From contig JAFSLH010000002.1 in NCBI GenBank assembly GCA_017448545.1, forward strand, positions 1 to 42,127: 42,127 nucleotides of DNA, in the 5' to 3' direction. The notes under the pieces were generated by a model. That model had not been told where the DNA came from. It did no database searches and was given only the letters and a program-made list of their open reading frames with translations. Numbering within the stretch: position 1 is the stretch's first letter; the number at the start of each line of letters is the position of its first letter. The translations under genes and the position numbers were made by a program. Below are positions 6,055 to 40,362 of this stretch, one piece after another. The stretch is from Clostridia bacterium (lineage in GTDB: Bacteria > Bacillota > Clostridia > Christensenellales > CAG-138).

Positions 6055-7431
6055 ATGTTGGAATTGTCTCCGAAAACCAATCTATTGGAACAGAAAAGCT
6101 ATAAATATGCGCTGCAGGATGTGCCGGACCCGAATTTATACAGGGATTTGTATAATTATACCGAAGTGCCGCGCGTATCGTTCAACCACCGCCGCGTGCC
6201 GATGGGCATGCCGAGCGAGATCTGGATCACGGACACGACGTTTCGGGACGGGCAGCAATCGCGCGAGCCGTACAGCGTGCGCGAGATTGTCGACCTCTAC
6301 CGGCTGATGAGTCGCCTCGGCGGGCCGTACGGGATCATCCGGCAGACGGAATTTTTCGTCTACAGCCAGAAGGATCGGGATGCGATCGAACAGTGTCAGG
6401 CGCTCGGCCTGCGCTTTCCGGAGATCACCACGTGGATTCGCGCGACGAAAGAGGATTTTGCCCTTGTGCGCGACCTCGGCATCCGTGAAACCGGCATCCT
6501 CGTTTCGTGCAGCGACTATCACATCTTCCGGAAGCTGAAGATGACACGCAAGCAGGCGATGGATCAATATCTCGGAGCCGTTGCCTGCGCATTCGAGGCG
6601 GGCGTCATGCCGCGCTGCCATCTGGAGGACATTACGCGCGCGGACTTTTACGGCTTTGTCGTGCCGTTCGTCAACGAGCTGATGAAGATGTCGCGCGATG
6701 CGGGCATCCCGGTGCGGATTCGCGCCTGCGATACGATGGGCTACGGCGTGCCGTATACCGAAGTCGCGCTGCCGCGCAGCGTGCCGGGCATCATCTACGG
6801 TCTGCAGCATTATTCGGACGTGCCGAGCGAAATGCTCGAATGGCACGGCCACAACGATTTTTATAAGGCGGTCGCCAACGCGTCCACGGCATGGCTCTAC
6901 GGCGCGAGCGCGGTCAACTGCTCGCTGCTCGGCATCGGGGAGCGCACCGGAAACGTGCCGCTCGAAGCGATGGTCATGGAGTACGCTTCGCTGCGCGGAT
7001 CGATGGACGGCATGGACCCGACGGTGATCACCGAGATCGGCGAATACTACCGGAAGGAGCTGCACTACGACATTCCGCCGATGACGCCGTTCGTCGGCCG
7101 GTATTTCAACGTGACGCGCGCCGGCATCCACGCGGACGGCCTGATGAAGGACGAGGAGATTTACAACATCTTCGACACGGAACGGCTGCTGCATCGAAAG
7201 CCGTCCGTCCTGCTCGGCAAAACGTCCGGGCTCGCTGGGATCGCGTACTGGATCAACGAAAACTACGGGCTGCCGGAAAGCGAGCACCTGCAGAAGAACG
7301 ATCCGCTGGTCGTGAAGATGAAGGAGTGGATCGACGCGGAATACGCAGGAGGGCGGCAGACGGCGCTCGGCACGGCGGAGCTGGAGAAGCAGATCGAGGA
7401 ATTCTCCGGCGGCAAGTACAAACGGCTGTGA
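6055..7431 (+). CDS. Probable Re-citrate synthase (DRE-TIM metallolyase family)
   Basis: The 458-residue protein belongs to the homocitrate/isopropylmalate synthase superfamily: DTTFRDGQQ at residues 60-68 and the metal-binding HGHND with H264 and H266. It lacks the C-terminal leucine-feedback domain of LeuA. Its length is close to that of the Clostridium kluyveri Re-citrate synthase, which I recall as about 450 residues. The strongest argument is context: aconitase and NADP-isocitrate dehydrogenase follow in the same operon and no Si-type citrate synthase is present, so condensation of acetyl-CoA with oxaloacetate to citrate is the missing step. Homocitrate synthase or isopropylmalate synthase remain possible but fit the neighbours less well. 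It is the first gene after the 5994 promoter. Confidence 0.75.
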   Translation: MLELSPKTNLLEQKSYKYALQDVPDPNLYRDLYNYTEVPRVSFNHRRVPMGMPSEIWITDTTFRDGQQSREPYSVREIVDLYRLMSRLGGPYGIIRQTEFFVYSQKDRDAIEQCQALGLRFPEITTWIRATKEDFALVRDLGIRETGILVSCSDYHIFRKLKMTRKQAMDQYLGAVACAFEAGVMPRCHLEDITRADFYGFVVPFVNELMKMSRDAGIPVRIRACDTMGYGVPYTEVALPRSVPGIIYGLQHYSDVPSEMLEWHGHNDFYKAVANASTAWLYGASAVNCSLLGIGERTGNVPLEAMVMEYASLRGSMDGMDPTVITEIGEYYRKELHYDIPPMTPFVGRYFNVTRAGIHADGLMKDEEIYNIFDTERLLHRKPSVLLGKTSGLAGIAYWINENYGLPESEHLQKNDPLVVKMKEWIDAEYAGGRQTALGTAELEKQIEEFSGGKYKRL

Positions 7432-7441
7432 GGGAAAAGCA

Positions 7442-8110
7442 ATGCTGCATAAAGTGGTTTCATTGGCGGATCAGGTGTATGAACGGCTCGAAGGGGACAT
7501 TCTTTCGGGCAAATATCCGCGCGGGACGGTTCTGACCGAGCTGCGCCTCTGCGAAGACCTCGGCGTCAGCCGCACCCCGGTTCGGGAAGCGCTGCGGATG
7601 CTCGAGCAGGAAAACATCGTCGAAAGCAGCGGCAAGGGCGTCCAGGTACTCAGCATTACGGCGGAGGACGCGGAAGCGATCTACCGGATCCGGGAACGGA
7701 TCGAGGGCATGGCGGCGGCCGGCTGCGCCGAGCATATCACGGACGATCAGCTGCGCGAGCTTGCCGATACGGTGAGCTTACAGGAATACTATGCGGCCCG
7801 GCACGACACCGACCGCGCGCAGGAGCTTGACGGCGAGTTCCACAAACTGATTTACCGGTATTCGGGCAGCGCGATTCTGTTCCATACGCTTTACCCGCTG
7901 CACAAAAAAATACAGAAATTCCGGCGAAACGCGCTGGAATACCCGCACCGCGCCAGCGTATCGCTCGCGGAGCACCGGCGGATTCTGGAAGCGATCGCCT
8001 CGCGCGACCCGGAAGCGGCGGATCGTGCGGTGACGGAGCATGTACGGGCCGCGCATCAGCGGCTGATTGAACTGGAACAGCTCGCCAAGGAAAAGGAGGA
8101 ATCCGTATGA
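7442..8110 (+). CDS. GntR-family (FadR/FCD) transcriptional regulator
   Basis: The 222-residue product has an N-terminal winged helix (1-70; LGVSRTPVREALRML is the recognition region) and a C-terminal helical FCD ligand domain. D130, H134, H178 and H200 fit the metal site that binds a carboxylate ligand in this family. It sits between the citrate synthase-like gene and aconitase, overlapping the latter by four bases (ATGA at 8107-8110). A citrate-pathway organic acid is therefore a plausible effector, though this is inference. The palindrome on the operon promoter at 6021-6032 suggests autoregulation. Confidence 0.9.
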   Translation: MLHKVVSLADQVYERLEGDILSGKYPRGTVLTELRLCEDLGVSRTPVREALRMLEQENIVESSGKGVQVLSITAEDAEAIYRIRERIEGMAAAGCAEHITDDQLRELADTVSLQEYYAARHDTDRAQELDGEFHKLIYRYSGSAILFHTLYPLHKKIQKFRRNALEYPHRASVSLAEHRRILEAIASRDPEAADRAVTEHVRAAHQRLIELEQLAKEKEESV

Positions 8111-10344
8111 ACGGCGTTACCTGGAACGCAGCCGGCGTTCGGCTGGAAAACGGCGTACCGACGCCGTCCGAGCGCGACCGAGCGGGCCGCGAAAAAACGA
8201 TCGCGTACCGGATCCTGCGCGCGCATGAAAAGGGGCACGATTTCGATGCGTTCCGGATTCGGTTCGACGCGCTGATCTCGCACGATATCACCTATGTCGG
8301 CATTATTCAGACCGCGCGCGCGTCGGGGCTGAAGCGGTTCCCGGTGCCTTACGCGCTGACGAACTGTCATAACAGCCTTTGCGCGATCGGCGGGACGATC
8401 AATGAGGACGACCACGCGTTCGGCCTGTCCGCCGCGAAGAAGTACGGCGGCATCTATGTGCCGGCGAATCAGGCGGTCATTCACCAGTACGCACGCGAAA
8501 AGCTGACGGGCTGCGGCCGGATGCTGCTCGGCTCGGATTCGCACACGCGTTACGGCTGCTACGGCACGATGGGCGTCGGCGAAGGCGGCGGCGAGCTCGT
8601 CAAGCAGCTTTTGGAAAACACCTGGGACGTCGCCGCGCCGGAAGTCGTTCTGGTCTGGCTGGAAGGCGCGCCGCGTCGGGGCGTCGGCCCGCACGACGTC
8701 GCGCTGGCGATGACCGCGGAACTGTTCCCCAAAGGGCTGGTGAAAAACAAGATTCTCGAGTTTGCAGGCCCCGGCGTTCGGTCGCTGCGCATGGACTACC
8801 GGATCGGCGTCGACGTCATGACGACCGAAATGGGCTGCCTCAGCTCGATCTGGGTCACGGACGAAGCCGTGCAGGATTACTATGAAACGATCGGCCGGCC
8901 GGAAGCGTTCCGTCCGCTGTCGCTCGCGGACGGCGCGTACTACGATTCGATGGTGACGGTGCGGCTGGACGAGGTCGAGTGCATGATCGCGCTGCCGTTC
9001 CATCCGTCGAAGGCGCTGCCGATCCACACGCTGCAAAGCGATCCCGCTGCGATCCTTTCCGCCTGTCAGGCCGATTGTCAGAAGGGACTGCCGTCCAAGG
9101 TACAGCTCGATTTGCTTTCCTGCATCGACGCAGACGGAAACGTGCGCTGCGAGCAGGGCGTGATCGTCGGCTGCTCCGGCGGCATGTACGAAAACCTGGC
9201 CGAAGCCGCCGCGATTCTGGAGGGCGGCAGCATCGGAAACGGCGCGTTCGATCTTTCGGTCTATCCGGCATCCGCACCGATCAACCTTGCCGTGCTGCGC
9301 GACGGGATTGCGGAAACGTTCCTGTCGGCGGGCGCGGTGATGAAGCCCTGCTTCTGCGGGCCGTGCTTCGGCGCGGGCGACACGCCGGCGAACAATACGC
9401 TTTCGATCCGGCATGCCACGCGCAACTTCCCGAACCGCGAGGGCTCCAAGCCCACGGAGGGACAGATTGCGGCGGTCGCGCTGATGGATGCGCGCTCGAT
9501 CGCCGCGACGGCGAAGAACGGCGGCGTGCTGACGGCGGCGACGGATATTGCGTATTCGTTCGAGCCGAAGCCGTACCGCTACACCGATACCGTCTACGAA
9601 AAACGCGTTTACAACGGGTACGGCCGTCCCGATCCGTCGGTGCCGCTTCGGTTCGGTCCGAATATCGCGGACTGGCCGAAGATTCCGCATCTCGAAGAAA
9701 ACCTGCTCGTGCAGCTCTCCGCGGTGATCCGCGACGAGGTCACGACGACCGACGAACTGATCCCCTCCGGCGAGACGTCGAGCTACCGTTCGAACCCGAT
9801 CCGGCTCAGCGACTTCGCGCTGTCGCGCCGCTGCCCGGACTATGTGGGCAAAAGCAAGGCGGCGCGTGCGCTCGAACAGGCGCGTGCGGCCGGGGAAACG
9901 CCGGCGGCGCTGTCGGACGTGCAGCGCGCGCTGGATATTCCGCTGAATAAAACGTCGGTCGGCAGCGCGATCTATGCGAACCGGCCCGGCGACGGCTCCG
10001 CGCGCGAACAGGCGGCGTCCTGTCAGCGCGTGCTCGGCGGGTTTGCCAACCTCTGCGTCGACTACGCGACGAAGCGCTATCGGTCGAACTGCATCAACTG
10101 GGGCATCGTGCCGTTCACGATGTCGCCGGAGGACGCGGCGGACCTACAGGTCGGCGACTGGGTGTACGTGCCGGACATCCGGGACGGGATCCTTGCCGGA
10201 ACGGAATCGTTCGAAGCATTCGTCGTTTCGGGCGGGACCGTCTCGAAGCGGACGCTGTTCGTGAAGGGACTGACGGTCGAGGAGCGCAGCATTCTGGCAC
10301 AGGGATGCCTGATGAACTACTATGCCGCAGGCGGCAAGGCGTAA
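8107..10344 (+). CDS. Aconitate hydratase family protein
   Basis: The 745-residue product is an aconitase-superfamily hydratase expected to convert citrate to isocitrate. Three cysteines spaced like the [4Fe-4S] ligands of mitochondrial aconitase (358, 421, 424) are visible: C356 in GCSGG, and C417 and C420 in CFCGPCFGAGD. The segment GSDSHTRYG matches the active-site region, and a C-terminal swivel domain (about 560-745) is present. It diverges from AcnA/AcnB in many core motifs and belongs to the clostridial hydratase subgroup. A ribosome site AGGAGG precedes ATG 8107. The neighbours, probable citrate synthase and isocitrate dehydrogenase, support citrate/isocitrate as substrate; another 2-hydroxyacid substrate cannot be excluded by sequence alone. 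Confidence 0.87.
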   Translation: MNGVTWNAAGVRLENGVPTPSERDRAGREKTIAYRILRAHEKGHDFDAFRIRFDALISHDITYVGIIQTARASGLKRFPVPYALTNCHNSLCAIGGTINEDDHAFGLSAAKKYGGIYVPANQAVIHQYAREKLTGCGRMLLGSDSHTRYGCYGTMGVGEGGGELVKQLLENTWDVAAPEVVLVWLEGAPRRGVGPHDVALAMTAELFPKGLVKNKILEFAGPGVRSLRMDYRIGVDVMTTEMGCLSSIWVTDEAVQDYYETIGRPEAFRPLSLADGAYYDSMVTVRLDEVECMIALPFHPSKALPIHTLQSDPAAILSACQADCQKGLPSKVQLDLLSCIDADGNVRCEQGVIVGCSGGMYENLAEAAAILEGGSIGNGAFDLSVYPASAPINLAVLRDGIAETFLSAGAVMKPCFCGPCFGAGDTPANNTLSIRHATRNFPNREGSKPTEGQIAAVALMDARSIAATAKNGGVLTAATDIAYSFEPKPYRYTDTVYEKRVYNGYGRPDPSVPLRFGPNIADWPKIPHLEENLLVQLSAVIRDEVTTTDELIPSGETSSYRSNPIRLSDFALSRRCPDYVGKSKAARALEQARAAGETPAALSDVQRALDIPLNKTSVGSAIYANRPGDGSAREQAASCQRVLGGFANLCVDYATKRYRSNCINWGIVPFTMSPEDAADLQVGDWVYVPDIRDGILAGTESFEAFVVSGGTVSKRTLFVKGLTVEERSILAQGCLMNYYAAGGKA

Positions 10345-10359
10345 GAAAGGGAGAAACCG

Positions 10360-11571
10360 ATGGAAAAGATTCGGATGCAGACGCCCATCGTGGAGATGGA
10401 CGGCGACGAAATGACCCGCGTGCTTTGGGCGTGGATCAAGGAAAAACTGATTTGCCCGTTCGTGGAGCTGAACAGCGAGTATTACGACCTCGGTCTTTTG
10501 CACCGCAACGCGACGCAGGATCAGGTCACGGTCGATGCCGCAAACGCGGCGCGCAAGTACGGCGTTGCGGTCAAGTGCGCGACGATCACGCCGAACCGCA
10601 AGCGCATGGAGGAATACCCGGAACTGACGCAGATGTGGAAGTCGCCGAACGCAACGATCCGTTCGATCCTCGGCGGCACCGTGTTCCGCACGCCGATTCT
10701 GATCGACGCGATCCGTCCGGTCGTGTCGTGCTGGAAGAAGCCGATCAGCATCGCGCGTCATGCGTACGGCGACATCTATAAGGCCGTCGAACTCAAGACC
10801 GACGAGCCGGGCGAATGCTTTTTGACGTTCCGCGGCGAAAGCGGCGCGGAGCAGACCGTTTCCGTGCAGAAGACGAGCGGCCCCGCCGTGTTCCTCGGCC
10901 AGCACAACACCGACGAAAGCATCCGCGCGTTTGCCGACGCATGCTTCGCCTATGCGATCAGTCTGAAGCAGGATCTGTGGTTCAGCTCGAAGGACACGAT
11001 TTCCAAGGTCTACGACGGCCGGTTCCGCACGATCTTTGAGGAGGAGTTCGAACACTACCGCGCTGATTTCGAGCGGCTCGGCATCCGCTATTTCTACACG
11101 CTGATCGACGACGCGGTCGCGCGTGTGATCCGCTCCGAGGGCGGGTTCATCTGGGCGTGCAAGAACTACGACGGCGACGTGATGAGCGATCTCGTTTCCA
11201 CGGCGTTTGGTTCGCTGGCCATGATGACCTCCGTGCTCGTCACACCTGACGGAAAGTTCGAGTTCGAAGCCGCGCACGGCACGGTCACGAACCACTATTA
11301 CCGCTGGCGCAACGGCGAACAGACCGGTACCAACCCGGTGGCCACGATCTTCGCCTGGTCCGGCGCGCTGAAAAAGCGCGGCGAACTCGACGGCAACGCG
11401 CCGCTGGTGCGGTTCGGGGAATCCCTGGAGCAGGCAGTGTTCGATACGCTGGCGGACGGGATCATGACGCCCGACCTCGTGCGGATGACCGTTCCCGGCT
11501 TTTCCGCAACGCCCGTCTGCACCGAAGTATTCCTGGACGAGATCGCAAAGCGGCTTGCCAAAAGTATTTGA
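10360..11571 (+). CDS. icd: NADP-dependent isocitrate dehydrogenase (eukaryote-like dimeric type)
   Basis: The 403-residue enzyme should oxidatively decarboxylate isocitrate to 2-oxoglutarate and NADPH in the cytoplasm. It has the type II features shared with eukaryotic IDH1/IDH2: MDGDEMTRVLW at the N-terminus, CKNYDGDVMSD in the middle, and EAAHGTVTNHY followed by TNPVATIFAW. The length is standard for the dimeric form. It is the last gene of the operon, 15 bases after aconitase with its own ribosome site (AAAGGGAG), and is followed by a terminator at 11653. Together the operon would supply 2-oxoglutarate for glutamate synthesis. Confidence 0.94.
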   Translation: MEKIRMQTPIVEMDGDEMTRVLWAWIKEKLICPFVELNSEYYDLGLLHRNATQDQVTVDAANAARKYGVAVKCATITPNRKRMEEYPELTQMWKSPNATIRSILGGTVFRTPILIDAIRPVVSCWKKPISIARHAYGDIYKAVELKTDEPGECFLTFRGESGAEQTVSVQKTSGPAVFLGQHNTDESIRAFADACFAYAISLKQDLWFSSKDTISKVYDGRFRTIFEEEFEHYRADFERLGIRYFYTLIDDAVARVIRSEGGFIWACKNYDGDVMSDLVSTAFGSLAMMTSVLVTPDGKFEFEAAHGTVTNHYYRWRNGEQTGTNPVATIFAWSGALKKRGELDGNAPLVRFGESLEQAVFDTLADGIMTPDLVRMTVPGFSATPVCTEVFLDEIAKRLAKSI

Positions 11572-34720: not shown

Positions 34721-35986
34721 TTACAGAAGATAGCTTGTGATACAGTCGTACCAGTGGACGTAGGTTAAGCCGTCCACGGTATACCGCTCGTTTTCCGGCA
34801 GCCGTTCGCTCCACGGTTTTTTGCCGGGTTCGATTGCCCAATCGTCGCGGTTGAAGCGCCGCCAAAGGATCGTGCGCCCGTTTTCATCGAGATACTGCTC
34901 GGTCAGAACGCCGCTTTCGTAGGTGTCCGTGTCCATCAGGCAGATCGTGTCAAAGGTCTTGCCGCCGATCGTGACTGCGTACCGCCCGACGACGTCGAGC
35001 ATAAACGGTTGCCGCTGCGTCGTCAGCGTCCGATCCTGCTTGCGGATCAGCCCTTTTTGCACGGGATGCGTTTCATTGCCGCAGTTGTCCGGCCCGAAGC
35101 CCCAGTTCTGCAGGAATTCGTCGCCGTCCAAAAACGTCCGGAACCGCTTCACGCCGTCCTCAATGTGGCTTTCCGCCAGGATGCGGCAGTGCGTGTCCGT
35201 CAGCTGGACGACGAAGCGACGGTTGTCGGTTTCGCCCATGGTATCGGTTTCGACGGCTTCGATCTCTACGCCTTCCAGTCCGTGCACGGCGGCGCGGCCG
35301 GAAACGGTCATGGTATACGACTCCATCCGCTTGCGCGACGGCAGATCATAGATCGCCCAGCAAAGCCGCTCTCCGGGCTTCGGAACGACGAACCAGCCCG
35401 TCATTTCTTCCCAGCAGACGGCGAACGGTTCGCGCGCGTCCGGCTCGATCCGGTAATCCGGCAGCAGCGCCGGCATCGTGTGCTGCATTGTTTTCATGGG
35501 ATTTCCCCCTTTCGGTTGGTAAGGATACTGTTCCTTGAAGTGCTTTTTCGCCTGAAACAGGCGGCTCTTGACGGTTCCGAGCGGAATGCCGAGCCGCTTC
35601 GCGATCTCCGCCTGCGGCAGTTCCCGGAAGAAATAGAGGTACAGGATCTGCTTGTCCCGATCGCCGAGCTTTTCCAGCGTTTCCCGCACGACCGTTTCCG
35701 TCCGTACGCCGTGCAGCCCCATCGTGACGGCGCGTTCTTCAAGCGATTCGAGCGGAATCTCCATGCGCTTTGCCTGCCGCCGGAAATAGTCGTTGCACTT
35801 GTTCCGCGCAATACCGATGATCCATGGCTTGAACGCATCCGCATTCGAAAGCGTGCCGAACCCGACAAACGATGCCGTATATACGTCCGACAGGACGTCC
35901 TCCGCGTCGTGCGGATTCCCGATCCGAAACCGAACAAATCGCTCAACGGCCGATCGGTTTTCCTGCAGCAGTTCGGAAAACTCCAT
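34721..35986 (-). CDS. ECF sigma factor with a long C-terminal extension
   Basis: The 421-residue product begins with sigma-70 region 2 (about 10-75; PHDAEDVLSDVYTASF, FKPWIIGIARNKCNDYFRR) and region 4 (about 100-155; LPQAEIAKRLGIPLGTVKSRL), typical of ECF sigma factors. Residues 164-421 form an extension I do not recognise; it has no membrane segment and is rich in Trp, Tyr and acidic residues. The start at 35986 is fixed by AGGAGG seven bases upstream; an ATG at 36025 has no ribosome site. At the domain boundary an in-frame ATG (35497) has AAAGGGGG seven bases upstream, so the extension may also be made as a separate 258-residue protein. An ECF-like promoter precedes the gene. Confidence 0.85.
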   Translation of the reverse strand: MEFSELLQENRSAVERFVRFRIGNPHDAEDVLSDVYTASFVGFGTLSNADAFKPWIIGIARNKCNDYFRRQAKRMEIPLESLEERAVTMGLHGVRTETVVRETLEKLGDRDKQILYLYFFRELPQAEIAKRLGIPLGTVKSRLFQAKKHFKEQYPYQPKGGNPMKTMQHTMPALLPDYRIEPDAREPFAVCWEEMTGWFVVPKPGERLCWAIYDLPSRKRMESYTMTVSGRAAVHGLEGVEIEAVETDTMGETDNRRFVVQLTDTHCRILAESHIEDGVKRFRTFLDGDEFLQNWGFGPDNCGNETHPVQKGLIRKQDRTLTTQRQPFMLDVVGRYAVTIGGKTFDTICLMDTDTYESGVLTEQYLDENGRTILWRRFNRDDWAIEPGKKPWSERLPENERYTVDGLTYVHWYDCITSYLL

Positions 35987-36165: not shown

Positions 36166-36903
36166 TCAGTGTCGCTCGATGAATTCCGCGTCGAGGCCGT
36201 CTAGGATGCCGTCGAATTGGACGGCGGAACGGATCGCGCGGGTCGTGCAGCGATTCAGGTCCGGCAGCCGCAGCGTCGAGAATCCGTGGATCGAAACGCG
36301 ATACGGGTGCGTCGGATGGTCGATCGTTTCGCTGACGCCGACGGAGAGCCCGATGCGGGGGAGCGTGTGAATGAAATTCTCGCGCCCCTCAAACGTCGGA
36401 AACGCCATCAGCATTTCAACGCGCCGCACGCAGTCGATGTCGCCGCCGTGCGCAACCACGTTTTGCACATACTCGGCGTTTTCCACGGACTGCAGCTTTG
36501 CGTCGTCGGGGAAGAGGAACCGGTAGTACGTTTTATAGTGCGGTTCTTCCACCTGCCCGTACGTCGTGCGGAGCCGCGTCTCGGCACGGCACAGCGCGGA
36601 CGCGCGATTCAGCAGCGAGGGATCGTCGGCATAAAAGTAGTACTGCCGAAGCGCCGGCGCTTCCAGAAAGCCGACGTGGATCGCATTCCCCTGCAGCGCG
36701 TCCTGCAGCGCAAGATACAGATCAGCCAGGCTCTTTTCTTCCTGCCGCGAGAATGTTTCCGCCTTGGGGTTACGCGGCGCGCAGGCGATGTAGATCAGGT
36801 GTGAATAGGCGAGCGTCGGCAGCAGCTGCCAATACTGCAGGTCCACCTGCACCCAGATCGGCTGCTGCTCCCATTCCCACTCGTACCGCAGCCAATCACT
36901 CAT
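36166..36903 (-). CDS. DUF695/RraB-like domain protein
   Basis: The 245-residue protein has an N-terminal DUF695-like region (about 1-130; WEWEQQPIWVQVDL, HVGFLEAPALRQYYFY) and a C-terminal RraB-like region (about 140-240; EYVQNVVAHGGDIDCVRRVEM, YRVSIHGFSTLRLPDLN). RraB inhibits RNase E in E. coli, but clostridia usually lack RNase E, so the target is unclear. The gene overlaps the end of alaS by eight bases and has no clear ribosome site of its own, which suggests translational coupling. A terminator lies downstream. Confidence 0.75.
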   Translation of the reverse strand: MSDWLRYEWEWEQQPIWVQVDLQYWQLLPTLAYSHLIYIACAPRNPKAETFSRQEEKSLADLYLALQDALQGNAIHVGFLEAPALRQYYFYADDPSLLNRASALCRAETRLRTTYGQVEEPHYKTYYRFLFPDDAKLQSVENAEYVQNVVAHGGDIDCVRRVEMLMAFPTFEGRENFIHTLPRIGLSVGVSETIDHPTHPYRVSIHGFSTLRLPDLNRCTTRAIRSAVQFDGILDGLDAEFIERH

Positions 36904-38692
36904 GCGTCAGAACGGCCTTGATACGGCGCACACCGCTGGAGGATGCTTCTTCCTTCAGGATATGGAAGTGACCGAGGTCGCCGGTATTCTTGGCGTGCGG
37001 GCCGCCGCAGATTTCCTTCGAGAATCGGCCCATCGTGTAGACCTTGACCTTCTCGCCGTACTTGCTTTCGAACAGACCGATCGCGCCCTGCTCCTTGGCT
37101 TCCTTCACGGTCATCTCCTCGCAGGTAATCGGAACCTTCGCGGCGATCGCTTCGTTCACGAGCTTTTCTACCTCGGCGAGCTCTTCCGGCGTGACCTTGC
37201 GGCCGAAGCTGAAGTCAAAGCGCAGCCGTTCGGCGGTGATGTTGCTGCCCTTCTGCGCAACGGAATCGTCGTGCAGTACCTTGCGCAGCGCGGCGTGCAT
37301 CAGGTGCGTTGCGGAATGCAGCGCGGCCGTCGCTTCGCTGTGGTCGGCCAGACCGCCCTTGAACCGCTGTTCTGCGCCGGCCTGCGACTTCTTCTGATGC
37401 TCCTCGAACGCGGCGCGGAAGCCCTCCACGTCCACGGTATAGCCCTGTTCCTCGGCGAGCTCCATCGTGAACTCGATCGGAAAGCCGTAGGTGTCGTACA
37501 GATGGAACGCGTTGACGCCGTCGATCTGCTTGCCTTCGAGCGAATGCGTCAGCTTGCCGAATTCGCGGATGCCCTTCTTCAGCGTGTCTGCAAACCGGTT
37601 CTCCTCCTTGCGCAGCTCGGAGACGATCTTGTCGTGGTTCTCCTTTAGTTCGTTGTAGAACTCGCCGTACGTTTCGATGACCTTCTCCGCGATCGTGCAG
37701 AGCGCATAGCGCGGCATGCCGAGCTGCGAAGCGTAGCGAATGCTGCGGCGGATCAACCGGCGCAGGATATAGCCCTGGTCGACGTTCGACGGCGTGACGC
37801 CGCGCTGGTCGCCGAGAATGAACGTCGCGCAGCGGATGTGATCCGCGACGATGCGGAACGCGCGCGTCGTTTCGGGATTGTCGCGATAGCCCTTGTGCGA
37901 AAGCTCCGCAATCAGCGCAATGATGCCGGAGAATGCGTCGGTATCGAACACGCTCTCCACGCCCTGCAGCGTCGCGACCGTGCGGTCAAGACCCATGCCG
38001 GTATCGACGTTCTTCTGCTTCAGCGGTTCGAAAACGCCGTCCGCAACCTTGTTGTACTCCATGAACACGTTGTTCCAGATCTCCAGATACTTATGGCAGC
38101 TGCAGCCGGCTTTGCAGTCCAGGCCGCAGGGCTCTGCGCCGGTATCGTAGAAAATCTCGGTGTCCGGGCCGCACGGGCCGGTCTGACCGGCGGGGCCCCA
38201 CCAATTATGCTTCTTCGGCAGATACACGATGTGCGACGGATCGACGCCCATCTCCACCCAGCGATCGTGCGCAACCGTATCGCGCGGCGCGTCCTTGTCG
38301 CCTTCGAAGCAGGTGAAGAACAGTTTTTCCTTCGGGATGCCGAGCCACTTTTCGTCGGTCAGAAACTCCCAGGAATACGCGATGCTCTCGGCCTTGAAAT
38401 AGTCGCCGAGCGACCAGTTGCCGAGCATCTCGAAAAACGTGCAGTGCGATGCGTCGCCGACTTCGTCGATATCGCCGGTGCGGACGCACTTCTGCACGTC
38501 GCAAAGACGGGTGCCCATCGGGTGCTTTTCGCCCATCAGGTACGGAACCAGCGGGTGCATGCCCGCGGTGGTGAACAGAACGGTGGGATCGTTCTCCGGG
38601 ATCAGCGATGCGGACGAAATGACCGTATGCCCCTTGGAACGGAAGAAATCGAGATACAGCGAACGCAGCTCTCGACTTGTTAATGAACGCAT
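36896..38692 (-). CDS. alaS: Short alanyl-tRNA synthetase lacking the C-terminal domain
   Basis: The 598-residue enzyme has the class II aminoacylation core from SRELRSLYLDFFRSKGH, including NDPTVLFTTAGMHPLVPYL, then the tRNA-recognition helical region and an editing domain with the zinc motifs H459-SAT-H463 and C562-GGP-H566. It ends right after the editing domain (SSSGVRRIKAVL), whereas typical bacterial AlaRS has about 870 residues with a coiled-coil and C-Ala domain. This is a natural short form or a second AlaRS copy; no frameshift or remnant of the missing part is seen downstream. The start at 38692 has AGGAGG six bases upstream. Its promoter is TTGACA/TAAAAT at 38749-38721. Confidence 0.92.
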   Translation of the reverse strand: MRSLTSRELRSLYLDFFRSKGHTVISSASLIPENDPTVLFTTAGMHPLVPYLMGEKHPMGTRLCDVQKCVRTGDIDEVGDASHCTFFEMLGNWSLGDYFKAESIAYSWEFLTDEKWLGIPKEKLFFTCFEGDKDAPRDTVAHDRWVEMGVDPSHIVYLPKKHNWWGPAGQTGPCGPDTEIFYDTGAEPCGLDCKAGCSCHKYLEIWNNVFMEYNKVADGVFEPLKQKNVDTGMGLDRTVATLQGVESVFDTDAFSGIIALIAELSHKGYRDNPETTRAFRIVADHIRCATFILGDQRGVTPSNVDQGYILRRLIRRSIRYASQLGMPRYALCTIAEKVIETYGEFYNELKENHDKIVSELRKEENRFADTLKKGIREFGKLTHSLEGKQIDGVNAFHLYDTYGFPIEFTMELAEEQGYTVDVEGFRAAFEEHQKKSQAGAEQRFKGGLADHSEATAALHSATHLMHAALRKVLHDDSVAQKGSNITAERLRFDFSFGRKVTPEELAEVEKLVNEAIAAKVPITCEEMTVKEAKEQGAIGLFESKYGEKVKVYTMGRFSKEICGGPHAKNTGDLGHFHILKEEASSSGVRRIKAVLTHE

Positions 38693-38787: not shown

Positions 38788-40212
38788 TTACTGCAGCGCA
38801 GCGCCGATCGCGGTCACATACGCCGCGCGGTCGGAATACACGAACCGGATTCCGTGCAGGGCGGCGACCTCGGAGAGCGCGTCCTCGGCCAGCTTGCCGT
38901 GCTCCAGAATCGAGCCGCAGACGAACACCGTGCGGACGAAGTGATGCTTCGCCGCAAACGCCGCCATCACGCCGATGCTCTGAAAGACCACGTTATAGAG
39001 GCCGTGGGCGAGCGCTTCGTCGGAAGCCGTACCGGCCTTGGCAAGGTTCGCGACCGTCGTTTCGGGCTTCAGGTTCGAGATCGTGCCGCGGCAAACGTCC
39101 CGGAGCGTCAGGTCGACCTCCTCCAGCACGCCCGCTTCCGCCATCGCGGCAACCTCATCGGGAACGTACCGGCCGAACAGCCGCTCCGAAAGCCCCTTCA
39201 GCATCCCGCCGCCGACGCCGGTTCCGCCGATATGGAAAACGGAGAACGGCGTAACGCGCACGAACGACGTGCCGGTGCCGACGCTGCAAACGATCAGATT
39301 CCGCTTCCGGGTCAGAAGCTGCGCCCCTTTGCCGAGCGAGCGGAACTCTCCGACGCGTACGGTCGGGATGCCGCACAGATCGTGCGAAAGCATCGAAGCG
39401 CCGACGCCGGTCACGCAGATTTTTTTCAGCTTCGGCAGCGCCATTTCCGAAATCGCCTGCTCCAGATCGACGTTCTGGCCGATCCGCGCCGTCCATTCAA
39501 TCCGCTCGCCGCGCAGCAGCGCGACTTTTGTTGCCGAAGTGCCGATGTCAATGCCGAGCACACGTGCCCGCGGCACGAGCGCATATCCGACGCCGACCGC
39601 CGCCAGCGCGCCGATAACAAGCTCCGGGATCCCGTTTGTTAAAACGACTGTTCCGATCACAGACAGCAGCCACGCCATCGCGTTTTCGGGCGCTGTGCCG
39701 CCTGCAAAGACGGCCGCCACATACTGCCGACCGATCAGCAGGTACGTCAGCCCGAGCACCAGCACGGTCGTGACCGCGCTGCCCGCCGCGCCGGCAAGCG
39801 CATAGGCCAGTCCGTCGCGTCCCTGCATCCGCTTGACCAGGCGGCAGACCTCACCGGCCACAACGCCGATCAGAATCCGCGGCACGAAGCAGATCAGAAG
39901 ACTCCAGCCGCTGCCGGAGATTTCGCCGAGCTGGCAGAACGGCGTAAACATAAACGCCGTCGGGTTCGCGGGCTGCACGAACGTCCAGTACAGGAAGCTG
40001 AGCAGACCGAACACAAACCCCATAAACGCGCCCTCCGCCGTGCCGAGCACGACGGCTGCAACGATGACCGGAATATGGCCGAGCGTCGCGGCGATCGGGC
40101 CGATCTGAATCGTTCCGAGCGGGGTAAACGCGATAATCGCTTCGAGCGCGACGAGCACGGCAAGCTCCGTCAGCCGCTTGATGCGATCCCGATTGGAAAC
40201 CTTTAACTGCAT
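38788..40212 (-). CDS. Fusion of ECF-transporter S component and type II pantothenate kinase
   Basis: The 474-residue protein joins two enzymes of one pathway. Residues 1-212 form a six-helix ECF S component of the pantothenate (PanT-like) kind (FTPLGTIQIGPIAATLGHIPV; PANPTAFMFTPFCQ). Residues 217-474 are a CoaW-type kinase: GIDIGTSATK (220-229), CSVGTGTSFV, GGTGVGGGML and an FVCGSIL segment near the end; the length fits a complete kinase. The kinase identity, which I rate higher than the S-component ligand, argues that the transported vitamin is pantothenate. Both active parts appear intact. GGAGG lies six bases before the start at 40212. The energising EcfA/EcfT proteins must be encoded elsewhere. 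Confidence 0.88.
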   Translation of the reverse strand: MQLKVSNRDRIKRLTELAVLVALEAIIAFTPLGTIQIGPIAATLGHIPVIVAAVVLGTAEGAFMGFVFGLLSFLYWTFVQPANPTAFMFTPFCQLGEISGSGWSLLICFVPRILIGVVAGEVCRLVKRMQGRDGLAYALAGAAGSAVTTVLVLGLTYLLIGRQYVAAVFAGGTAPENAMAWLLSVIGTVVLTNGIPELVIGALAAVGVGYALVPRARVLGIDIGTSATKVALLRGERIEWTARIGQNVDLEQAISEMALPKLKKICVTGVGASMLSHDLCGIPTVRVGEFRSLGKGAQLLTRKRNLIVCSVGTGTSFVRVTPFSVFHIGGTGVGGGMLKGLSERLFGRYVPDEVAAMAEAGVLEEVDLTLRDVCRGTISNLKPETTVANLAKAGTASDEALAHGLYNVVFQSIGVMAAFAAKHHFVRTVFVCGSILEHGKLAEDALSEVAALHGIRFVYSDRAAYVTAIGAALQ

Positions 40213-40243
40213 GAGAATCCTCCAGTAAGAGAGTCGTTTCAGT

Positions 40244-40278
40244 ATCAAAATGACCACCGGTTCGGTGGTCATTTTGAT
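40244..40278 (-). terminator. Terminator of tRNA-Leu
   Basis: A perfect 15-bp stem, ATCAAAATGACCACC (40244-40258) with GGTGGTCATTTTGAT (40264-40278), starts two bases after the tRNA 3' end on the minus strand. The 3' arm contains TTTT. It also separates the tRNA from the transporter-kinase gene. Confidence 0.8.
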
Positions 40279-40279
40279 T

Positions 40280-40362
40280 TGGTGCGGTAGATGGGACTTG
40301 AACCCATACGCCTTCGCATACGCCCCTCAAACGTACCTGTCTGCCAATTCCAGCACTACCGC
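40280..40362 (-). tRNA. tRNA-Leu (anticodon GAG)
   Basis: The 83-base gene folds as a class II tRNA: acceptor GCGGTAG/CTACCGC, anticodon stem TACGT/GCGTA around loop TTGAGGG (anticodon GAG), a long variable arm, T arm ATGGG-TTCAAGT-CCCAT, discriminator A and an encoded CCA end. It reads CUC/CUU leucine codons. Confidence 0.97.

Follow-up and report, generated by a model that had tools for sequence, protein, structure and literature searches.

What would a bacterium take up through a protein that carries an energy-coupling factor (ECF) transporter S component and a pantothenate kinase-like enzyme in a single chain, and what would become of the cargo once inside? The question is raised by a gene of a gut bacterium of the Clostridia (assembly GCA_017448545.1, contig JAFSLH010000002.1), which lies in the 42,127-nucleotide stretch of DNA analysed here, referred to as the window. 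A sequence-only reading of the window had described the gene as a fusion of a pantothenate S component with a type II pantothenate kinase (PanK).

Structure of the fusion gene

The open reading frame translation gives 474 codons and a stop codon on the minus strand, running from 40212 to 38788 (Table 1); the plus-strand translation of 38788-40212 is interrupted by stops. The extent and codon count in the sequence-only reading were exact, and the strand, on which it was silent, can now be added. The hairpin listed in Table 1, which has long matching arms, is judged from its sequence to be probably the terminator of the tRNA-Leu upstream of the fusion gene. In the alignment of fused proteins, the junction from the end of the last helix to the first kinase strand motif is free of methionine in 25 of 26 sequences (the exception is G403), so that, considering ATG codons only, these 25 have no ATG restart there.

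Table 1. Positions in the window of the fusion gene, its parts and selected residues, and the features upstream of it
Feature	Position	Strand	Basis
Whole gene: 474-residue ECF S component/type II pantothenate kinase-like fusion, and stop codon	38788..40212	-	Reading frame, Pfam, NCBIfam
S half, residues 1-214, six helices, PanT-like	39571..40212	-	Pfam, PDB matches, Foldseek
Linker, residues 213-217, V-P-R-A-R	39562..39576	-	Alignment of fused proteins
Kinase half, residues 218-473, type II PanK-like (CoaW/Fumble)	38794..39561	-	Profile and PDB 2ews_A matches
Phe68, at PanT Trp64 (changed)	40009..40011	-	Alignment
Arg112, at PanT Arg95 (kept)	39877..39879	-	Alignment
Thr148, at PanT Asn131 (changed)	39769..39771	-	Alignment
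Glu289, at Glu70 of S. aureus CoaW	39346..39348	-	Retained in 26/26 fused proteins
His327, at Arg113 of S. aureus CoaW	39232..39234	-	His in 26/26 fused proteins
Ribosome-binding site GGAGG, 6 bases 5' of the ATG start	40219..40223	-	Sequence
Hairpin with long matching arms, between tRNA-Leu and the fusion gene	40246..40276	-	Sequence
tRNA-Leu, upstream of the fusion gene	40280-40362		

Apart from the fusion gene itself, no conserved gene neighbourhood was found between the window and loci L002-L006. Several other genes of the window deserve mention in their own right. A short alanyl-tRNA synthetase of 598 amino acids (36897-38692, minus strand) is missing the usual C-terminal part; it matches the short NCBIfam family PRK01584 almost end to end and is therefore ordinary. 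Its end is overlapped by a few bases by a gene (36169-36903, minus strand) that combines DUF695 and an RraB-like domain in a single 245-residue protein. The gene at 34724-35983 (minus strand) encodes an ECF-type sigma factor (residues 2-152) followed by about 270 residues with no Pfam match at E 0.1. A homocitrate/isopropylmalate-synthase-like gene, an aconitase-like hydratase and, by eye, an isocitrate-dehydrogenase-like frame lie at 6055-11571 (plus strand) and may represent a route to 2-oxoglutarate by way of a Re-type citrate synthase.

The S half

The S half matches Pfam ECF_trnsprt (PF12822) over residues 12-205 (E 2.3e-16; 60.7 bits against a cut-off of 30.7; profile positions 1-165 of 169). 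Residues 14-77 also match the Pfam thiamine-transporter family, though at 22.9 bits, under its cut-off of 25.8, and the NCBIfam ThiT and folate S-component models match the fusion protein weakly, far under their cut-offs. The nearest solved structures are those of PanT (4rfs_S, 4e-13; 6zg3_C, 1.7e-6), followed by ThiT at 0.16. Structure prediction, named as a check in the sequence-only reading, points to the PanT fold for the S half, but the model, built from seven sequences, is poor overall (mean pLDDT 53, residues 282-439 below 50). Its S half has six helices of at least 10 residues, at pLDDT 40-83 by 10-residue blocks. Foldseek with this model placed 4rfs_S on top (TM-score by target 0.73, rmsd 4.6), and 6zg3_C reached a TM-score by target of 0.76. 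Both parts of the original description, six helices and the pantothenate-transporter type, agree with these matches. Grouped by eye, the hydrophobic stretches of the S half number six, and Lys and Arg residues stand at 4-13, 124-132 and 215-217; a predicted N-in/C-in topology, with both termini cytosolic, fits.

The kinase half

Pfam Fumble (PF03630) matches residues 307-473 (E 7.1e-16; 58.7 bits against a cut-off of 28.5), and the NCBIfam type II PanK model PRK13317 matches residues 218-473 (E 1.5e-53). The latter score, 182 bits, falls below the equivalog cut-off of 234, and on this profile evidence the kinase half is therefore assigned to the wider type II PanK family alone and not to the CoaW equivalog PRK13317. 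The nearest solved structure is S. aureus CoaW (2ews_A, E 9.9e-17), matched over the length of the domain. S. aureus PanK was also the second Foldseek match, but the kinase half superposed on it poorly (rmsd about 14).

The catalytic base of S. aureus CoaW, Glu70, has a counterpart in every fused protein (Table 1). The phosphate-binding glycine motifs, GTGT and GGG, are invariant in all 26 when aligned to the S. aureus enzyme. The sequence-only reading had recognised a complete CoaW-like kinase by its phosphate-binding motifs; that identification stands, and these catalytic residues have not been lost.

The histidine at the Arg113 site was considered as a mark of a dead or re-targeted fused kinase and rejected. 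The same His is found in the free CoaW of near clostridial relatives, with Arg in deeper branches, and is therefore a trait of the lineage that is independent of the fusion. Type II PanKs are dimers, and dimeric kinase halves would bring two S domains together.

Distribution of the fusion and its unfused relatives

The two-domain architecture, for which the sequence-only reading had suggested a survey, recurs in 28 of the 103 genomes of the window's family. Twenty-six copies are full length; the copy in G490 is truncated where its contig stops, and that in G444 extends across two contig ends. The genomes span five genera: g1 (the window's), g272, g276, g286 and g290. Leaving the window itself aside, the fused proteins (26, from separate assemblies) share 35-82% identity with that of the window. 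Contigs of five other Clostridia assemblies (five of the family loci, counted once) hold full-length copies that are 78-82% identical, which disposes of the assembly error that had been named as a possible refutation. One of these contigs is titled sheep ileum and three have RUG names, which we take to denote rumen genomes.

In a phylum sample of 398 genomes, both halves were found in one frame in the window's own genome only, and in none of the 397 others. Of 396 genomes sampled from the order, 34 belong to the family; among the matches listed, and with at most four candidates scored per genome, full-length single-frame matches came from the family alone and from none of the 362 genomes outside it.

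Unfused states occur as well. Loci L007-L009 match the S half only. The S component and kinase are separate adjacent genes in G096 and G283 of the phylum sample and in G398, G430 and G427 of the family; in G427 the TGA stop of the S gene is followed by AGGAG and then by the ATG of the kinase. Of the 52 coaX places in the family (51 genomes; the two pieces of G424 counted as one, two matches below the cut-off excluded), 44 lie no more than 700 bases from an S match, and at 21 the contig also carries CoaBC at a distance of up to 4 kb. The S frame adjoins CoaX in 21 of the 25 CoaX loci read in detail. The proximity of S-type genes to CoaX, with CoaBC nearby, links the S family to CoA precursors; judging from these gene arrangements, it travels with CoA-precursor kinases of two types.

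Free-standing CoaW genes present a different state. Fifteen non-tandem loci were available and 11 were read (about 2 kb on each side where the contig allowed); no S gene was linked to CoaW at any of them (L068-L070 and L072-L079, genera g270, g279 and g289), and CoaBC was found only in G485.

A few further frames show S-like domains in other company. At L119, L120 and L121 (G688, G754 and G657) the S and coaX frames are in-frame with a single stop codon between them (L120 by Pfam), a state one step short of an S-CoaX fusion. A 436-residue frame in G610, of the same order (L122, 1424-2731, plus strand), combines ECF_trnsprt (residues 18-201, 3.9e-9) with 5-formyltetrahydrofolate cyclo-ligase (residues 250-425, 4.3e-38) and looks like a folate importer fused with its own salvage enzyme. 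In G433 (L123, 834-2666, minus strand) one 611-residue frame appears by eye to consist of an S-like domain followed by a long acidic tail.

Origin of the fusion

The 26 fused kinase halves form one clade. Support is good but mixed: SH-aLRT 99 in a quick tree, and bootstrap 94 with SH-aLRT 51 in a careful tree built without three long-branch rows. The S halves do not form a single clade. In trees built without SX_L091 (short) and the long-branched S half of G403, a single origin of all fused S halves was rejected by the AU test (p 0.0036), as was a union of the window's clade A with clade B (p 0.00067); a union of clades B and C was not rejected (p 0.525). The clade A S halves group with the S genes beside CoaW in G427, G398, G283 and G096 (100/99). 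A corresponding grouping of the window-clade kinases with the kinases of the tandem genomes G427, G430, G096 and G283 was tried and rejected (p 2.6e-50). On the simplest history suggested by these trees, the fusion would have arisen once and the window's lineage would later have exchanged its S half; that this kinase lineage was fused a second time is also conceivable.

CoA pathway gene content

Gene absences were counted in incomplete genomes throughout. The sole marker used for de novo pantothenate synthesis, panC, was found in none of the 103 family genomes (9 of 14 controls). Type I PanK was over its cut-off in none of the 103, with sub-threshold matches in 83. CoaX was over its cut-off in 51 family genomes, and CoaBC (PF04127) was found in 45 of the 103 and in 14 of 14 controls.

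CoaBC is distributed by kinase type. PF04127 was found in none of the 28 fusion genomes, including the 13 that are at least 90% complete, and TIGR00521, which spans CoaB and CoaC, had no match in the same 28. By class, CoaBC is present in 0 of 26 genomes with the fusion only, 0 of 2 with fusion and CoaX (G472, 62% complete, and G403), 1 of 17 with free CoaW only (G485), 0 of 1 with free CoaW and a partial CoaX (G421), 43 of 48 with CoaX only and 1 of 9 with neither kinase. At a completeness of at least 90% the counts are 0 of 13 for the fusion, 1 of 14 for free CoaW only and 21 of 22 for CoaX only. The difference between CoaW-only genomes (1/43) and CoaX-only genomes (43/48) has a Fisher p of 4.6e-19, a value that overstates the case since the genomes are related. 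The pattern recurs within g1, g279, g282, g286 and g289, each of which has both states. Five CoaX-only genomes, 67-92% complete, are exceptions in having no CoaBC match (G411, G432, G446, G496 and G498), and one of these, G496, has a CoaBC fragment by TIGR00521.

CoaD is over its cut-off in 24 of the 28 fusion genomes; the window's own genome is 60% complete and has CoaD only below the cut-off. A match to the EcfT family (PF02361) is present in 27 of the 28, all except G460 (84% complete). In the window's own genome (G000), G459 and G494 this match is of a weaker kind, at 2e-24 to 3e-30, whereas most of the other genomes reach about 1e-46 or better. The fusion genomes, incomplete as they are, have the gene pattern of the pantetheine shunt, in which a kinase and CoaD are present and CoaBC is not found. 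Outside the family, 12 of 18 CoaW genomes have CoaBC, including the tandem-gene genomes G096 and G283, and six do not (G270, G069, G167, G020, G233 and G392). CoaW in general is therefore no sign of CoaBC loss or of a shunt.

Binding-site residues

According to the available text of PMC7755397, which cites the work, mutation shows a role for Trp64, Arg95 and Asn131 of L. brevis PanT in pantothenate binding. The window protein has Phe, Arg and Thr at these sites. Clade B (11 proteins) has Phe, Arg and Asn; clade C (8 proteins) has the complete triad of Trp, Arg and Asn; and the divergent G403 has Trp, Ser and Phe. All six proteins of the window's clade A are changed at the Asn131 site (Thr in five, Ala in one). 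Arg95 is retained in 65 of 66 S sequences. Asn131 is found in 36 of 40 unfused relatives and Trp64 in none of the 40, so that the Trp is not diagnostic. Because Trp64 and Asn131 are both replaced in the window protein, its S half is filed here, by alignment, as PanT-like rather than PanT.

When alignment columns were compared between S sequences from genomes having CoaBC (36 rows, partly assumed from context) and those lacking it, with L105, L106 and G403 left out, the change at Asn131 was the one difference to emerge, and it was confined to the window's clade. No ligand-linked column difference was consistent in clades B and C. Since these two clades are unchanged at Asn131 though their genomes are equally without CoaBC, the S pocket as read from the alignment neither proves nor rules out pantetheine as the ligand.

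Proposed function and its alternatives

That uptake and a CoA-precursor kinase are combined in one polypeptide, as the sequence-only reading proposed, is upheld to the extent that a PanT-type S component is joined to a type II PanK-like kinase and that the fusion is conserved. We consider it to be an uptake-and-trap device for a CoA precursor, most probably pantetheine, and give this reading, in which the ligand is inferred from gene content, a probability of roughly 0.65.

The S half would bind the precursor outside the cell and dock on the shared ECF module (EcfA/A'/T), which would make it topple inward in the manner of other group II ECF transporters. Since the S half is predicted to have its two termini in the cytosol, the kinase would be placed at the inner face of the membrane, about five linker residues from the last helix. 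It would phosphorylate the released precursor with ATP before escape, leaving it trapped. Pantetheine, or a pantetheine disulfide once reduced in the cell, would thereby yield 4'-phosphopantetheine as the useful product, and CoaD followed by CoaE would convert this product into CoA. The fusion would thus replace three genes of sister genomes, panT, coaX and coaBC, which are often adjacent.

Gene content argues for pantetheine because, with CoaBC missing, phosphopantothenate would be a dead end by the known route and pantetheine would still be usable. Type III kinases are described as unable to use pantetheine in passages of PMC8721197, and CoaX as highly selective for pantothenate in passages of PMC11487621. 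An organism with CoaX only therefore cannot bypass CoaBC, and the observed pattern, CoaX with CoaBC and CoaW without it, is as expected from these kinase selectivities. A pantetheine shunt has been proposed for CoaBC-less gut bacteria (Rodionov et al. 2019, PMC6593275); the available part of that study reports that, among gut genomes, only 12% of about 90 predicted pantetheine auxotrophs had a known B5 transporter.

Pantothenate, the cargo originally suggested, has become doubtful and is somewhat unlikely, yet it survives best among the alternatives. The product would then be 4'-phosphopantothenate, with the CoaB and CoaC steps carried out by unrecognised non-homologous enzymes or with the fusion existing besides another phosphopantetheine route. 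The S half is closest to pantothenate transporters, and the nearly universal Arg95 and the full triad of clade C fit pantothenate at least equally well. The tandem S and kinase relatives in G096 and G283 have CoaBC, as does the family CoaW genome G485, and high concentrations of pantetheine lower the activity of S. aureus PanK-II, as stated in the available text of PMC12570885; both points stand against pantetheine. However, CoaBC was missing from the matches of all 28 fusion genomes and found in every control, its loss accompanies the switch from CoaX to CoaW in five genera, and the window protein has lost Asn131, along with the rest of its clade.

A bolder version of the pantetheine reading is distinctly less probable. 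Here the protein would be a pantetheine-specific, ATP-driven group translocator in which the toppled S domain hands its cargo to the tethered kinase, with release only as 4'-phosphopantetheine. Phosphorylation would contribute to drawing the vitamer inward, whether or not the ECF module assists, and one gene would stand in place of panT, coaX and coaBC, with the S half exchangeable and the kinase staying.

Import independent of the ECF module, with the kinase taking the substrate from the S domain and phosphorylation alone as the driving force, appears very improbable. The covalent join, the linker of about five residues and the lack of an EcfT match in G460 would suit it, but the other 27 fusion genomes have EcfT-family matches, and S components are thought to require the module for toppling (PMC7755397, in its available text).

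We give hardly any credence to a sensor in which the S domain would be a receptor controlling the kinase. S-component folds are joined to signalling domains in the 5TMR receptors (PMC11109136, as far as its available text goes), and in G246 a 1079-residue frame (L124, 3093-6329, plus strand) starts with an S-like membrane domain and, judged by eye, resembles a PAS/hybrid histidine kinase that includes a receiver domain, in agreement with published S-fold receptors. Against this, the fused kinase is a type II PanK, a metabolic enzyme, and in 26 of the 28 fusion genomes no other PanK was found; the free S relatives adjoin CoaX, CoaW or CoaBC. An assembly join or read-through of two genes is scarcely credible, since, although unfused neighbours exist (G427), 26 full-length fused proteins from separate assemblies are open across the junction.

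Relation to known systems

The S half shares fold and family, and the retained Arg95, with PanT of L. brevis (4rfs) and L. delbrueckii (6zg3), and its free relatives adjoin pantothenate-kinase genes, with coaBC close at some places. In contrast to PanT, the window protein is fused to a kinase, Trp64 and Asn131 are replaced in its clade, and CoaBC was not found in the fusion genomes. S. aureus CoaW (2ews) matches over the domain length and has the catalytic Glu and the glycine motifs in common with the fused kinase, which differs in having His for Arg113 and in being tethered to the membrane via the S component.

At the level of the pathway, the fusion genomes resemble the 'Apn' variant, the pantetheine shunt of Rodionov et al. 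(2019, PMC6593275), in having CoaW and CoaD with CoaBC and panC not found. That study proposes the route and leaves transport mostly unknown; its available text mentions no fused transporter-kinase. Two B. subtilis systems are described in the available text of PMC11487621. PanU (YhfU) is likewise an ECF S component for uptake of a CoA precursor, encoded by a separate gene. TcyJKLMN similarly feeds a pantetheine kinase through uptake of a pantetheine derivative, but there cysteinopantetheine enters by a cystine ABC importer rather than an ECF transporter, and the genes are separate. The 5TMR receptors, as presented in the available part of PMC11109136, also have an S-component fold covalently joined to a cytosolic domain; their outputs are signalling ones, whereas the partner here is the first enzyme to act on the cargo. 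Among the matches listed in the open-licence literature, no description of an S component fused to a pantothenate kinase was found.

Significance

It is unusual for the substrate-binding subunit of a transporter to be linked covalently to the enzyme that acts first on its cargo, and the fusion offers a handle on possible substrate channelling from an S component as it topples. Inside five genera, the exchange of CoaX and CoaBC for CoaW without CoaBC provides a natural replicate set for the study of pathway replacement. If the shunt reading is true, the free-CoaW genomes of g270, g279 and g289 would have a pantetheine transporter still to be found. For the CoaBC-less gut bacteria, the fusion is a single-polypeptide candidate for the transporter of the pantetheine shunt, tied to the enzyme that would use its cargo.
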